Origin: Anaerolinea thermophila
GTDB taxonomy: Bacteria; Chloroflexota; Anaerolineae; Anaerolineales; UBA4823
DNA: 36,119 nucleotides
Direction of reading: 5' to 3'
NCBI GenBank assembly: GCA_020724505.1
Contig: DYGV01000006.1
Location: 1 to 36,119, forward strand
Shown here: piece after piece, positions 17,234 through 24,898 of the stretch
Position numbering within the stretch: the stretch's first letter is position 1
Layout of the letters: the number at the start of each line of letters is the position of its first letter
The notes under the pieces: model-generated
What the model saw: the letters and a program-made list of their open reading frames with translations, nothing else
What the model was told of the DNA's origin: nothing
The model's database searches: none
Translations under genes and position numbers: made by a program

Positions 17234-19744
17234 ATGCAGATTGACCTCGAGCTTTATCGCCAGCCTGTGCGCGTTTCCATTCAGCCAGCCTTGCGCCTAT
17301 CGGTCATTGACATCGCACCCGATCACGCTCAGCGCACGATAGTGTTTCTGCACGGTTTTGGCGGTCGAGCGCTGCAATGGCAATATCAACTATGGAAATT
17401 TTCGGACGAAAATCGGGTCATCGCGCCGGATCTGCGGGGGCATGGCCGCTCCGATAAACCCGCTGCCGGGTACACCATGCCCCGACTTCAGGAAGATCTA
17501 GCCGCGCTGCTGGATCGTTTGGGGGTCACTGCGCCGATCGTACTCGTCGGTCACTCTTTTGGCGGCGCCATCGCGGCGGAATACGCCGGCGCCAACCCCA
17601 GGCGCGTCAGCCATCTGATCTTGATTGCCACTGCCGGCGAATATCAGCTCAATGCCCTGTACCGCTTGCTGCTCCGCCTGCCCCAATCGGCCCTGAAAGT
17701 CTTCACGCCTTTCACCCGGCAATGGTTGGGCGCTCCGCCGCACGTACTAAAAGCCATGTACGAGGATAATTTGTGCTGTTGGAATGGATGGAATCTTTTC
17801 CGCAGCCTGTCTGTACCTGCGCTGGTGGTTCGCGGTCACATGGACGCGGTCTTTGAAAAACCCTACTTTGAAGAGGTTGCCCGCGCTATTCCCGGCGCTG
17901 AAGAGGTGGACGTAGGGGCTTCCGGTCACATGGTCATGCTGGAACGGCGCGATGCGGTGGATCGCGCCATCCAGCGTTTTATTGACCGCAGCCCGCCAGT
18001 CTTGCCGCATCTTTCCACAGCCTCGCCGGAGCGTTTACGCGCTCAACTTATCGAGGAACGCCCCTGGCTGCGTTATTACGAGGAAAAAGTACCCTACACA
18101 ATCGCCGTGCCGCGCACACCCGTGCACAGCCTGCTGGATTCGGCGGCGCGCCGCTTTCGCCGAAAAACCGCTCTAATATTCGAAGGTCGCCGCATCAGCT
18201 ACCAAAAATTGAACCAGGACACCGCGCGCTTCGCCAACTTCCTCCGAAAACTGGGGGTGAACAAAGGTGAGCGGGTGATGTTGTTGCTGCCCAATTCGCC
18301 TCAGATGGTGATTGCTTTCTTTGGAACATTGAAGGCTGGCGCTACGGCTGTATTCACCCTGCCTACAACTGAAGCTCAAGAGCTAACGCGCCAGATTCGC
18401 GATTCGGGAACTGGCGTGCTGGTCACGCTTTCTCAATTCAAAGAGCTTGTGCGCCAAATCAAGGAACAATTAGAGGTGGAGGGCGCTTCGCCGCTTCAAC
18501 ATGTCATCTTCACCCACATTGCAGACTTTCTCCCGCCTATCAGCCGCCTGGCTTTGCGCCTCTCTCGCGAAGATCGCTTACACCACCGCCTGGATATGCC
18601 TCTAGATGCCAACTTTCACCTTCTTTCCAAAGCATTACGAGAGCAGAGCGCGGAGATCTCGGAAGTCGAAACCACCCCTGGCGATCTTGCTGTGATCCAA
18701 TATACCGGTGGAACAACTGCTCAACCTAAAGGGGTGATGTTATCCCATTACAACCTGGTCGCCAACGCCTTGCAAACCAGGCATTGGATCCCCGAAGCGC
18801 TGGAGGGGCAGGAGCGATTTTTGTGCGTGTTGCCTTTTGCCCATAGTTACGGGCTGACCGCCGCTCTGAACGTGGCAATTGCGCTGGGGGCGACATTGAT
18901 CCTCAAAGCGCGCTTCGAAGCAGCAGATGCGCTGAAAACCATCCGCAAATACCGGCCGACGATCTTTCCCGGCGTCCCGGCGATGTATGTGGCGATCAAG
19001 GATTTCCCCGGCGTGCGCAGATATGGCGTTTCCTCGATCAAAGCTTGCATCAGCGGATCGGCGCCCTTGCCTGTTGAAGTGCAAGAAGCCTTTGAAAAAC
19101 TCACTCGCGGCAGGTTGGTGGAGGGATATGGGCTGACGGAGGCCTCGCCAGTGACGCACGCCAATCCGTTGCGGGGCTTGCGCAAAGTAGGCAGTATTGG
19201 CATCCCCTTGCCCTCGACGCAAGCGCGCGTGGTTGACCTGAACAAGAGCGACGCGCCCGTACCCATCGGCCAGATCGGCGAGCTGGCGGTGCGCGGCCCC
19301 CAGGTGATGTTCGGCTATTGGGGGGACGAAGCAGCAACACGCCGCGTCCTATCCCCGGATGGCTGGCTGCTCACCGGCGATGTAGCCCAAATGGACAATG
19401 ACGGTTATTTCCGCATCATTGCTCGCAAAGCCGACATGTGGTATCCTAGCAAACCGGGCAACCCGGCCTTTCCGCGGGACGTTGAAGAAGTATTATTCGA
19501 GGTTCCTCAGGTGAAAGAGGCTGCAGTCGTGGCAATCGCCGGGCAACCGATCGCTTTTGTGATTGCCGGGAAAGATCGCCCCTCAGCCGAATCGCTGATT
19601 GCCTATTGCAAGCGACGATTGCCGCCCGAATTGACGCCGCGCCTGGTCATCTTTGTGGATGATTTTCCGCGCACCTTCATTGGAAAAGTATTACGGCGCG
19701 AGCTGGCGCGCATCTTTCAAGAGCATGAAAGCGAGATTCTCTAA
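17234..19744 (+). CDS. Fusion protein: N-terminal alpha/beta hydrolase + C-terminal AMP-dependent synthetase/ligase (FadD-like)
   Basis: HGFGGRALQWQ...DLRGHGRSDKP...GHSFGG then YTGGTTAQPKGVMLSHYNLVANA...EGYGLTEASPVTHANP...WLLTGDVAQMDNDGYFRI...FIGKVLRREL in one ORF. Confidence 0.93.
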   Translation: MQIDLELYRQPVRVSIQPALRLSVIDIAPDHAQRTIVFLHGFGGRALQWQYQLWKFSDENRVIAPDLRGHGRSDKPAAGYTMPRLQEDLAALLDRLGVTAPIVLVGHSFGGAIAAEYAGANPRRVSHLILIATAGEYQLNALYRLLLRLPQSALKVFTPFTRQWLGAPPHVLKAMYEDNLCCWNGWNLFRSLSVPALVVRGHMDAVFEKPYFEEVARAIPGAEEVDVGASGHMVMLERRDAVDRAIQRFIDRSPPVLPHLSTASPERLRAQLIEERPWLRYYEEKVPYTIAVPRTPVHSLLDSAARRFRRKTALIFEGRRISYQKLNQDTARFANFLRKLGVNKGERVMLLLPNSPQMVIAFFGTLKAGATAVFTLPTTEAQELTRQIRDSGTGVLVTLSQFKELVRQIKEQLEVEGASPLQHVIFTHIADFLPPISRLALRLSREDRLHHRLDMPLDANFHLLSKALREQSAEISEVETTPGDLAVIQYTGGTTAQPKGVMLSHYNLVANALQTRHWIPEALEGQERFLCVLPFAHSYGLTAALNVAIALGATLILKARFEAADALKTIRKYRPTIFPGVPAMYVAIKDFPGVRRYGVSSIKACISGSAPLPVEVQEAFEKLTRGRLVEGYGLTEASPVTHANPLRGLRKVGSIGIPLPSTQARVVDLNKSDAPVPIGQIGELAVRGPQVMFGYWGDEAATRRVLSPDGWLLTGDVAQMDNDGYFRIIARKADMWYPSKPGNPAFPRDVEEVLFEVPQVKEAAVVAIAGQPIAFVIAGKDRPSAESLIAYCKRRLPPELTPRLVIFVDDFPRTFIGKVLRRELARIFQEHESEIL

Positions 19745-20617
19745 TTGCTAAACTACACTGAAATCGGCAACGGCGATCCCGTGATTTTGATCCACGGCAT
19801 GGCTGCCTCGCTCTACGATTGGCAAACGTTAGCGCCTGCGCTAGCGCAGGCGGGTTATCGTGTGTTTGCCGTGGATTTGCTGGGACACGGCGCAAGCCCG
19901 AAACCCAAAAAACCGGATCTGTATTCGGTTCGATCCGTTTATGCAGTATTAGAAGACTGGATCTGCGGTCTGGGATTGGAAACGCCCATCCATCTGGTCG
20001 GTCACTCCCTGGGCGGCTATCTGAGCCTCCGCTACGCTCTGATGCGTCCCCAATCTGTAAGCTCGCTGACGTTAATCAATCCGCTATACACGCTCAATCA
20101 GATTTCACCCGTTTTACGGCTGTTTCACCAGCGGCCTGGGGTAGGCATCCAGGTGCTGCGCCTGGCGCCGTTGAGTGTAATCGAATGGGCGCTGAGCTGG
20201 AATTCAGCCAACCAGGAAAAAATCGGGTTTCAAGCCCGTCGGCAAATTGCCATAGATTACAAGCGCGCTTCGCCGCACATCCTGAACATCACCCGCCACC
20301 TGCCAGATCTGACGCCCGACCTGGGGCGCATTCAATCGCCGACTTTGCTGATCTGGGGCGAGCGCGACCCAACCCTGGCGCCGAAATCCTATCCCTTGCT
20401 GGCAGACCATCTGCCCCACTGCATCCAAAGCAGCATACCAGATGGGGGGCACCAGCCGCATATCGCCAAAGCCGAATTTGTCAACCGCGAAATTTTGCGC
20501 TTTTTGGACGATCAGTCACGCCGTTCGCGCTCTTTGGCAGAAACGCGCCTTGCAGGACATCCACCGGACACGGTTGAAAAGTCGCCCAAATCGGCTACCA
20601 TCACACCAGCCTATTAA
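19745..20617 (+). CDS. Alpha/beta hydrolase (TTG start)
   Basis: LIHGMAASLYDWQTLAPAL...VDLLGHGASPKP...HLVGHSLGGYLSLRYA...WGERDPTL...GGHQPHIAKAE; directly follows the previous stop. Confidence 0.88.
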   Translation: MLNYTEIGNGDPVILIHGMAASLYDWQTLAPALAQAGYRVFAVDLLGHGASPKPKKPDLYSVRSVYAVLEDWICGLGLETPIHLVGHSLGGYLSLRYALMRPQSVSSLTLINPLYTLNQISPVLRLFHQRPGVGIQVLRLAPLSVIEWALSWNSANQEKIGFQARRQIAIDYKRASPHILNITRHLPDLTPDLGRIQSPTLLIWGERDPTLAPKSYPLLADHLPHCIQSSIPDGGHQPHIAKAEFVNREILRFLDDQSRRSRSLAETRLAGHPPDTVEKSPKSATITPAY

Positions 20618-20940: not shown

Positions 20941-22719
20941 ATGAAACGAAATTTGCTTTACACCCTTACTGCAGCAGTGGTTTTGCTGAGTATGGTCTTG
21001 GGCGCATGCGCTCAGCCGCCCGCGGCGACTGAAGCGCCGGCGATGACCGAAGCCCCTGCGGCGACTGAAGCGCCAGCGGCGACCGAAGCGCCGGCGATGA
21101 CCGAAGCCCCCGCTGCCACAGAAGCTCCAGTGGAGACTGAAGCCCCCATGGCTTTCGAACCCCTGTCGTTGAGCGCGCCAGATTGTGAATACGGCGGTCT
21201 CTTCAAATCCATCGAAGCGGTGGATGAGTTCACCGTCAAATTCACTATGTGCTCTCCCGACCCGGCGTTCCTAGCTAAGATCGCCTTCTCTTCTTTCGCC
21301 ATTCAACCGAAGGAATGGCTGGAAGAGACCGGTGGCGGCGGCGCGGGCAGCCAGTTGCTCGAAAGGCCGATTGGCACCGGACCGTACATGATCAAGGAAT
21401 GGCGACGCGGCGACCAGTTGATTCTGGAAAAATTCCCCGATTACTGGGGCGAGCCAGCCAAGAACCAGACCGTGGTCTTCAAGTGGAGCTCGGAGGCTGC
21501 GCAGCGGTTGCTCGAGCTGCAGGCTGGCACTGTGGACGGCATTGACAACCCAGGGCCCGATGACTTCGCCACCATCGAGGCAGACGCCAACCTCCAATTG
21601 ATCCCTCGCCCGGCGTTGAACGTCTTCTATATCGGCATGAATAACACCTACCCGCCCTTTGACAACGAGAAGGTGCGTCAGGCGATTGCCATGGGTATTG
21701 ACCGCAAGCGTATTGTGGACAACTTCTACCCGCCTGGTTCGGAAGTCGCCACACACTTCACCCCTTGCGCCATCCCCAATGGCTGTGCTGGCGAACCGTG
21801 GTATGAGTTCGACCCCGAAGCGGCGCGTGCCCTGCTGGCTGAAGCCGGCTATCCAGATGGCTTTGAAACCGAAATCGCCTACCGCGATGTGGTGCGCGGT
21901 TACCTGCCGCAACCCGGCGTGGTGGCTCAAGACATCCAGGCGCAGCTTAAAGAAAACCTCAACATTGACGCCAAGATCAATGTGATGGAATCCGGCGCAT
22001 TCCTGGACGCAGCCGACTCAGGGCAGCTTTCTGGCCTGCATCTGTTGGGCTGGGGCGCTGACTTCCCGGACATTGTCAACTTCCTGGATTACCACTTCGG
22101 CGCCGGCGCCTCCAAGCAGTTCGGCAACAAGTTCGATGACATTATCGAACAGCTCAAACAAGGCGCTGCGTTAGCCGATAATGATGCGCGCACCCCGTTC
22201 TACACCGCCGCCAACAACCTGATCAAGCAGCACGTGCCTATGGTGCCTGTTGCTCACGGCGGTTCGGCTACTGCCTACAAGGCAACGGTCGAAGGCGCTC
22301 ACTCCAGCCCGCTGGGCAACGAGAACTTCGCCGTGATGGGCATCCCCGGACAGGACACCTTCGTCTGGATGCAAAACGCGGAGCCGATTTCCCTCTACTG
22401 CGCGGATGAAACCGACGGCGAATCGTTGCGCGCTTGCGAGCAGGTGACCGAATCGCTCTACGGCTATGAAATCGGCGGAACGGAAGCGGAACCCCGCCTG
22501 GCCGAGGTCTGCGAACCGAACGCCGACCTGACCGAGTGGACCTGCAAACTGCGCCAGGGCGTCAAATTCCACGACGGCTCAACGTTGGACGCCAATGATG
22601 TGGTCATGTCCCTGATTATCCAGTGGGACGCCTCGAACCCGCTGCACAAGGGCAACACCGGCGCATTCACATACTGGAATGGTCTGTGGGGTGCGTTCCT
22701 GAACGCGCCGCAACAGTAA
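20941..22719 (+). CDS. Peptide/nickel-type ABC transporter substrate-binding lipoprotein with circularly permuted motif order
   Basis: Lipobox LSMVLGAC, TEAPA repeat linker, then SBP_bac_5 motifs (IGTGPYMIKEWRRGDQLILEKFPDYWG; NEKVRQAIAMGIDRKRIV; DPEAARALLAEAGYPDGF), with the usual N-terminal motifs (EPRLAEV...WTCKLRQGVKFHDGSTLDANDVVMSL) at the C-terminus. Confidence 0.9.
   Translation: MKRNLLYTLTAAVVLLSMVLGACAQPPAATEAPAMTEAPAATEAPAATEAPAMTEAPAATEAPVETEAPMAFEPLSLSAPDCEYGGLFKSIEAVDEFTVKFTMCSPDPAFLAKIAFSSFAIQPKEWLEETGGGGAGSQLLERPIGTGPYMIKEWRRGDQLILEKFPDYWGEPAKNQTVVFKWSSEAAQRLLELQAGTVDGIDNPGPDDFATIEADANLQLIPRPALNVFYIGMNNTYPPFDNEKVRQAIAMGIDRKRIVDNFYPPGSEVATHFTPCAIPNGCAGEPWYEFDPEAARALLAEAGYPDGFETEIAYRDVVRGYLPQPGVVAQDIQAQLKENLNIDAKINVMESGAFLDAADSGQLSGLHLLGWGADFPDIVNFLDYHFGAGASKQFGNKFDDIIEQLKQGAALADNDARTPFYTAANNLIKQHVPMVPVAHGGSATAYKATVEGAHSSPLGNENFAVMGIPGQDTFVWMQNAEPISLYCADETDGESLRACEQVTESLYGYEIGGTEAEPRLAEVCEPNADLTEWTCKLRQGVKFHDGSTLDANDVVMSLIIQWDASNPLHKGNTGAFTYWNGLWGAFLNAPQQ
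21021..21150 (+). repeat. Low-complexity coding repeat (A-T/M-T-E-A-P units)
   Basis: Tandem gcgactgaagcgcc / gcgatgaccgaagccc units encoding (A)(A/M)TEAP linker. Confidence 0.85.
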
Positions 22720-22832: not shown

Positions 22833-23912
22833 ATGACCACCTATATCCTTCGCCGCTTACTAGCCAGCATTCCCGTTCTTCTGGGCATCTTGTTTGTAAC
22901 CTTTGCCCTGGCGCGTCTGATTCCCGGCGATCCCTGCCGGGCGATCCTGGGCGAAAAAGCAACCGATGTCATCTGCGATGAATTTATTCGCCGCCACGGT
23001 TTGGATAAACCCATCCCGACTCAATTCGTCATCTATGTCAGCGAGATCCTGCGCGGCGATCTGGGTACTTCGATTCGCTTGGGCAAACCGGTCACCGAGC
23101 TGCTGGTCGAGCGTCTGCCCACCACGCTGGAACTTAGCCTGGCCGCGATGACCTTCAGCATTGTGGTTGGCATCCCGCTTGGCATCATCTCTGCTGTGCG
23201 GCACAATTCCGCGATAGATGTGGGGACGATGGTGCTGGCCAACGTGGGCGTCTCGATGCCCGTCTTCTGGCTGGGGTTGATGCTGGCGTATGTCTTTGCA
23301 TTAGTTTTAAAAGGGACGCCTCTGCAACTTCCACCATCGGGCCGGCTGTCGCCTGGGCTGACGATCCCACCATTTTATGATGTGTGGGGCTGGCAACTGG
23401 GCAAAGAAGGCTTTCTTAGATCGTTACTCGTCTTCATCAGTCAGATGAATGTTCTAAATTCGCTCTTGATCTGGCGAATGGATTTACTGTGGGACGCCCT
23501 CAAACACCTGATCCTGCCCGCCGTCGCGGTGGGCACAATTCCATTGGCAATCATCGCCCGCATGACGCGCTCCAGCATGTTGGATGTTTTAGGGCAGGAC
23601 TACATCCGCGCCGCGCGGGCAAAGGGCTTGCCGCGTGGTATGGTGGTGATCAAACATGCCCTGCGTAACGCTCTGTTGCCCCTGGTCACGATCATTGGCC
23701 TGTCATTCGGCGCGTTCTTAGGTGGCGCAGTGCTGACGGAAACCATTTTTGGCCTTTCGGGCGTTGGCAGGATTATGTATGACTCGATCACAGCGCGAGA
23801 TTACGGAGTGGTGCAATCCTTCACCGTGGTAATCGCCGTGTTCTTTGTCATCCTCAACCTGATTGTGGACATCTCCTATACTTTCCTGGACCCGCGCGTC
23901 CGTCTGGACTGA
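22833..23912 (+). CDS. ABC transporter permease (DppB/OppB family)
   Basis: MTTYILRRLLASIPVLLGILFVTFALARLIPGDP...DYIRAARAKGLPRGMVVIKHALRNALLPLVTIIGLSFG (EAA loop). Confidence 0.93.
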   Translation: MTTYILRRLLASIPVLLGILFVTFALARLIPGDPCRAILGEKATDVICDEFIRRHGLDKPIPTQFVIYVSEILRGDLGTSIRLGKPVTELLVERLPTTLELSLAAMTFSIVVGIPLGIISAVRHNSAIDVGTMVLANVGVSMPVFWLGLMLAYVFALVLKGTPLQLPPSGRLSPGLTIPPFYDVWGWQLGKEGFLRSLLVFISQMNVLNSLLIWRMDLLWDALKHLILPAVAVGTIPLAIIARMTRSSMLDVLGQDYIRAARAKGLPRGMVVIKHALRNALLPLVTIIGLSFGAFLGGAVLTETIFGLSGVGRIMYDSITARDYGVVQSFTVVIAVFFVILNLIVDISYTFLDPRVRLD

Positions 23913-23920
23913 GTGAGCAA

Positions 23921-24898
23921 ATGGCTGCACTAAAAGAAGAAAGCATTGAAAAACGACCCAAAGTGGCGCGCCTGGAGGCGGAGGGTCTGCGCACGACCGA
24001 AAGCATCTCCTTCTGGGGGACAGTTTGGAGGCGCTTATTTCGCCGTAAATCCGCCGTGGTGGGGTTATGGATTCTGGCGTTTTTGGTGCTCATTGCCATC
24101 ACCGCGGATTGGATCGCCCCCTACGATCCGGTGCAAGTGTTGATTGGTGTCGAGCCGGTGAAGATGCGCCAGAAACCCTGCATCCACTTGCTCGGTTGCC
24201 CGGAGGATCAACCTCAGCATATCATGGGTATTGACGGCAATGTGCGCGATCAATTCAGCCGCATTTTATACGGAGCGCGCTTGAGCCTGCTGGTGGGTCT
24301 AAGCACCGTCACTTTTGCCATCATCATTGGCACATTTTTGGGCGCCATCGCAGGTTATCTGGGGGGTGTGGTAGATAACGTCATCATGCGCTTTATGGAT
24401 GTGTTGCTGGCGTTTCCCTCGCTGCTGCTGGCGATCGCCATTGTCACCATCTTGGGGCCGGGTCTGATCAACGCTCTGCTGGCAATTGCCATTGTGTCTA
24501 TCCCGACCTATGCGCGAGTGACGCGCGCCACGGTGCTTTCGGTGCGAGAGATGGATTTTGTGGAGGCGTCTCGCGCCATGGGCGGAGGATGGGGGTATAT
24601 CTTGTTCGGACGCATCTTGCCCAACTCTTTGACACCACTCATCGTAACCGGCACATTGGGAATCGCCACTGCCATCCTGGATGCGGCTGCGCTTTCCTTC
24701 CTGGGCTTGGGCGCTCAACCGCCAACCCCCGAATGGGGTACCATGCTCGGCGCAGAGCGCAACCAGGTCTTCACCGCGCCGCATTTGGTATTCTTCCCAG
24801 GCTTTGCCATCATGTTGACCGTGCTGGCCTTCAACCTGTTAGGAGATGGGTTGCGCGACGCCCTAGACCCGCGCCTGGCGCAACGCGGCGAAGAATAA
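23921..24898 (+). CDS. ABC transporter permease (DppC/OppC family)
   Basis: RRLFRRKSAVVGLWILAFLVLIAITADWIAPYDP...DFVEASRAMGGGWGYILFGRILPNSLTPLIV...LSFLGLGAQPPTPEWGTML. Confidence 0.93.
   Translation: MAALKEESIEKRPKVARLEAEGLRTTESISFWGTVWRRLFRRKSAVVGLWILAFLVLIAITADWIAPYDPVQVLIGVEPVKMRQKPCIHLLGCPEDQPQHIMGIDGNVRDQFSRILYGARLSLLVGLSTVTFAIIIGTFLGAIAGYLGGVVDNVIMRFMDVLLAFPSLLLAIAIVTILGPGLINALLAIAIVSIPTYARVTRATVLSVREMDFVEASRAMGGGWGYILFGRILPNSLTPLIVTGTLGIATAILDAAALSFLGLGAQPPTPEWGTMLGAERNQVFTAPHLVFFPGFAIMLTVLAFNLLGDGLRDALDPRLAQRGEE

Follow-up and report, generated by a model that had tools for sequence, protein, structure and literature searches.

The window, i.e., the whole stretch of 36,119 nucleotides of Anaerolinea thermophila DNA analyzed here, contains an ORF of 592 aa at positions 20941..22719 of the forward strand (ATG at 20941, stop codon 22717-22719), just as the first-pass annotation had delimited it. 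Judged by sequence, the product starts with a lipoprotein signal peptide with the lipobox VLGA-C (20941..21009; Cys23), followed by a low-complexity (A/M)TEAP-repeat linker (residues 24-72; 21010..21156). A conserved C-[DE]-Y-G-G stretch comes after this linker. The mature N-terminus had originally been placed at SIEAVDEF, which could not be upheld, since all three of these elements precede it. Using a loose pattern, we found a lipobox-like motif in 74 of 83 distinct relatives; at least two of the nine relatives without it are truncated upstream. The SBP module itself comprises two blocks. Block A (residues 82-466; 21184..22338), assigned by Pfam, phmmer, and alignment, corresponds to residues 123-504 of mature DppA from E. 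coli and, as aligned to DppA, holds the remainder of the N-lobe, the entire C-lobe, and the C-terminal strand. Block B (residues 472-585; 22354..22695), assigned by phmmer, alignment, and a rotation test, corresponds to residues 1-118 of mature DppA and has moved to the C-terminus. According to the alignment, the former C-terminus meets the former N-terminus at the joint GIPGQ (22339..22353), i.e., Block B with its approximately 115 residues is connected to Block A by about five residues. Both permease genes are adjacent, as had been noted before, and follow downstream on the same strand: a DppB-type permease (BPD_transp_1; 22833..23912) with the scoop-loop motif GEK at the position of E41-R42 in E. 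coli DppB, and a DppC-type permease (BPD_transp_1, OppC_N; 23921..24898). Elsewhere in the window, an 836-aa ORF (17234-19744) appears to fuse an alpha/beta hydrolase to an AMP-forming acyl-CoA ligase, directly followed by a hydrolase-like ORF (19745-20617); both were assessed by eye only.

The swapped order of the two blocks was supported by several sequence comparisons. Pfam assigned the protein to PF00496 (SBP_bac_5) with 277 bits against a cut-off of 32.4, split into two stretches, the longer of which aligns residues 86-391 of the protein to positions 58-366 of the profile. A phmmer search against solved structures matched residues 505-582 to residues 35-118 and residues 87-466 to residues 123-504 of E. 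coli DppA (1dpe); both stretches were significant and in swapped order, with E-values for the best chain down to 1e-67. The full alignment carries Block B further back to the first strand of DppA, at about residue 472. We additionally put the C-terminal block first and compared the local alignment score to those obtained with 200 shuffles of the moved block. Rotation raised the score from 440 to 547 for DppA (shuffle maximum 460) and from 480 to 691 for L157, a canonical protein from Chloroflexota (shuffle maximum 496). A gain on rotation was seen for DppA and three canonical relatives from Chloroflexota, and the highest-scoring rotations begin at residues 453-505. As the gain exceeds that of the shuffled blocks, the shift is real and not a chance similarity. 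The comparisons confirm that the ORF encodes a lipoprotein of the DppA/HbpA-type within SBP_bac_5, whose usual first fifth is now located at the end of the chain. The canonical N-to-C order of the SBP_bac_5 fold is absent, and we therefore classify the protein as a permuted variant rather than an ordinary member of SBP_bac_5.

A swap seen in a single metagenome contig could also be caused by misassembly or a frameshift, and two features of the source genome would be compatible with such an artefact: it is fragmented (232 contigs), and TEAP-like repeat linkers are common to several of its genes. We rejected misassembly in view of the conservation of the block order among independent genomes. 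Scanning one genome per species yielded 65 loci, about half of which are full-length collinear relatives with identities of 49-96%, including one from the isolate Chloroflexales ZM16-3. Among 60 genomes related to that of the window, 37 carry the permuted gene (E ≤ 1e-60), as do 56 of 399 sampled Chloroflexota genomes (E ≤ 1e-100), including an isolate and single-contig genomes. In the class of the L036 genome, recorded as Acidimicrobiia, 19 of 198 sampled genomes gave a match; 18 of these are full-length and collinear, and the nineteenth (L231) is canonical. An identical order, at 47-96% identity, in dozens of independent genomes from one group and in 18 genomes from a second leaves virtually no room for an artefact. 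The survey of homologs proposed in the first-pass annotation thus returned the same order in both groups, and misassembly, one of its two refuting conditions, was not borne out. Rather than a sequencing error, the rearranged form represents an old family that is widely conserved across Chloroflexota and Acidimicrobiia. Outside these groups, the permuted order was not found in 249 Bacillota genomes, of which 35 gave a match restricted to the core part (positions ~11-396) and three inspected matches were all canonical, and none of 249 Pseudomonadota genomes matched at the threshold used. Both negatives are limited by the threshold of the scan and by the fact that, as long as no positive control accompanies it, an empty result has no evidential value. 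Regarding individual copies, the genome of L025 holds a decayed extra permuted gene with several stop codons (L212) alongside intact copies. Furthermore, two related genomes carry a fast-evolving permuted SBP whose neighbor is a canonical, oppositely oriented SBP_bac_5 gene (L190 and L191).

We complemented the sequence data by an AlphaFold model of the 520-residue mature protein, built on 55 relatives (mean pLDDT 95.1, pTM 0.91). The prediction argues for one closed, two-lobed fold with a rigid arrangement, as known from Cluster C, and against two separate incomplete modules, the outcome that would have refuted the permutation. Compared to the canonical protein L156, the predicted secondary-structure elements are cyclically shifted: the model starts at the strand at residue 132 of L156 and ends with the first eight elements of L156, with E6-11, H26-35, E40-42, E49-51, E54-59, E65-70, H84-95, and H109-115 of L156 corresponding to E401-406, H421-427, E435-437, E444-446, E449-454, E460-465, H479-490, and H505-511 of the permuted model. 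DppA, HbpA, and OppA were the top matches in Foldseek. Against DppA (1dpp_A), the permuted model aligned over 389 columns (TM 0.70, rmsd 2.2), whereas an unpermuted canonical control aligned over 518 columns to the same chain. Foldseek keeps the sequence order, and the contrast between 389 and 518 columns serves as a substitute for a permutation-aware superposition.

Restoring the blocks to a common order, we obtained a tree in which all permuted proteins form one clade with a support of 100/100. This outgroup-rooted tree nests the clade inside canonical proteins of the DppA type from Chloroflexota, Actinomycetota, and Bacillota, and the sister group remains unsure (support 88/76). The single clade is most simply explained if the permutation arose once and was later transferred between Chloroflexota and Acidimicrobiia. 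It is known that tandem duplication, in-frame fusion, and trimming constitute the textbook route to a circular permutation. Applied to this family, the ancestral gene would first have formed a tandem duplicate; in-frame fusion of the two copies and subsequent trimming would then leave the old C-terminus joined to the old N-terminus by about five residues, with the new termini in an N-lobe loop that is variable. In the alignment, the new termini indeed lie in the loop between residues 118 and 123 of DppA, whose length varies in the closest canonical proteins, and tandem pairs of permuted SBP genes (L037, L198, L199, and L192) fit the route. No two-ended intermediates with Block B at both ends of the ORF were found among the classified ORFs, and the duplication–fusion step is for this reason only inferred.

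Alternatively, the C-terminal block might have been acquired from another SBP gene in a fusion event, i.e., by a domain swap, instead of being the protein's own former N-terminus. The moved block is short (~115 residues), and a similar doubt has been raised for MglB-2 of T. pallidum (PMC4990184). However, the same closest canonical proteins (L155-L157 from Chloroflexota and L235-L237 from Bacillota) give good scores with both blocks, and either block on its own places the permuted set in one group (support 98 for the N-block and 100 for the core). We consequently regard a swap as improbable, with the restriction that self-permutation and a swap involving very close paralogues are indistinguishable. 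With both blocks homologous, their order swapped, and the arrangement conserved across genomes, the family qualifies as a natural permutant.

Regarding function, the residues that hold the peptide ends in DppA are retained. Arg319 and Tyr321 (21895..21903) align with Arg355 and Tyr357 of mature DppA and are invariant in 55 relatives, and Asp374 (22060..22062), which aligns with Asp408, is present in 54 of these 55. In E. coli DppA, the dipeptide is held at its carboxyl end by R383 and at its amino end by D436 (both in precursor numbering); the double mutant loses binding, and both residues are contacted by E41-R42 of DppB (PMC12136057). At this scoop position, all 88 DppB partners in our set, duplicate loci counted, carry either E-K (76) or E-R (12). 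By inference, the permuted protein would still act as a Venus flytrap, with Arg319 and Asp374 holding the peptide ends, and would dock on DppBC like DppA. Other positions differ. Trp386 of DppA is replaced by Ser in the permuted family; the ligand may therefore be something other than a dipeptide, and the preference for side chains may differ from that of DppA. Co-occurring cysteine pairs were found at 276/282, 487/499, and 524/535, and a further pair at 82/104 in 52 of 55 relatives; being next to the new N-terminus, the latter might staple it, which is an inference. As the main consequence of the permutation, we would expect the lipid-anchored linker to be attached at a surface loop of the N-lobe and not at the first strand of the fold.

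The genomic context largely points to an importer. DppB and DppC are encoded downstream of the permuted gene in most relatives with enough flanking sequence, and DppD/DppF-like ATPases are adjacent in several relatives (L033, L034, L036, L038, and L042). The copy in the window has no ATPase gene beside it; ten oligo_HPY ATPase matches elsewhere in the same genome make it plausible that the ATPase is shared in trans. Several copies without adjacent ATPases, together with one relative (L192) whose chain also includes a Ser/Thr kinase and a probable membrane helix, could also indicate that the family now serves mainly as a sensor or chaperone-like lipoprotein instead of an importer subunit. We consider this unlikely given the permease genes in most relatives, the retained scoop motif, and the ATPases adjacent in the five relatives named above. 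The protein is thus, in our assessment, very probably a naturally permuted lipoprotein of Cluster C (DppA-type), most likely the peptide receptor of a Dpp-type importer with adjacent DppB and DppC, although data on binding or transport do not exist.

In comparison with DppA and HbpA (GbpA) of Cluster C (PF00496), the permuted family shares the homology of both blocks, the predicted fold, the peptide-terminus residues, and the DppB/DppC partners, and differs by the cyclic shift of about 118 residues, the Trp386 replacement, and its own cysteine pairs. A natural permutation of a binding protein has been described for Tp0684 (MglB-2) of T. pallidum, a circularly permuted glucose-binding lipoprotein of Cluster B for which "Cluster Bc" was proposed, and tethering was named by the authors as a possible reason for the permutation (PMC4990184). 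Both cases concern lipid-tethered binding proteins of ABC importers, in which the N-lobe is re-cut and the first strands are moved to the C-terminus (PMC4990184). Unlike the sugar-binding MglB-2, the protein described here belongs to SBP_bac_5 and Cluster C according to Pfam and Foldseek, and lacks the Type I sugar-binding fold; membership in Cluster Bc was rejected. Moreover, the moved block of MglB-2 is only 13% identical to its counterpart, whereas in the present family the sequence alone clearly shows the moved block to be homologous. In the open-access literature, we found no description of a permuted Cluster C or SBP_bac_5 protein, only MglB-2 and engineered or unrelated cases; subscription literature was excluded, and a permutation-survey preprint does not mention SBPs in its main text. 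We provisionally regard a permuted Cluster C binding protein as new, while natural permutation of an SBP was already known from MglB-2.

In several relatives, another domain takes the place of the N-terminal linker within the same ORF. The first group comprises fusions of a Peripla_BP_6 (LivK-type) domain before the permuted SBP_bac_5 module (L018:2636-5515 and L021:1-2328), with dppB and dppC still downstream; separate assemblies (L018; L021 and L112) share this fusion. The second group is formed by SBP_bac_3 before the permuted module (L025:2924-5515, L051:3128-5524, and L186:589-3042 on the minus strand), found at three separate positions in the tree, of which one placement is only moderately supported. 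Two further fusions are known from one genome each. One carries a sugar-type SBP_bac_1 domain before the module (L193:1162-4050, minus strand; the same gene as L154). The other is a 942-aa ORF (L192:1290-4115, plus strand) that combines a Ser/Thr protein kinase, a probable membrane helix, a Pro/Thr linker, and the permuted SBP_bac_5 module, with a second permuted SBP just downstream. Chains with more than one binding domain resemble GlnPQ-type importers with their tandem substrate-binding domains (PMC8025302). The GlnPQ-type domains are linked to the transmembrane subunit, whereas the fused relatives combine different SBP families in one lipoprotein chain, and the copy in the window, unlike the GlnPQ-type, has no extra binding domain.

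These fusions could hint at a further consequence, namely that the permutation produced a portable peptide-sensing module that can be attached N-terminally, in which relocation of the tether to the outer N-lobe loop made the N-terminus a tolerant fusion point, to which lineages repeatedly added binding domains or a cytoplasmic kinase with a membrane segment. We put this forward as a tentative idea that is rather unlikely on present evidence; the causal link between fusions and permutation stays a hypothesis because the frequency of fusions in canonical SBP_bac_5 proteins was not measured. If true, the family would include receptors of dual specificity and a receptor kinase that senses peptides.

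Cluster C binding proteins are very common. Annotation pipelines relying on PF00496 alone take the protein for an ordinary SBP and overlook the shift. For biosensor design, the permuted family marks a natural insertion point in DppA/OppA-type proteins. As an old, single-clade family that has kept its ligand residues and permease partners intact, it also provides a natural experiment to ask if docking and ligand exchange depend on where the termini and the lipid tether are located.
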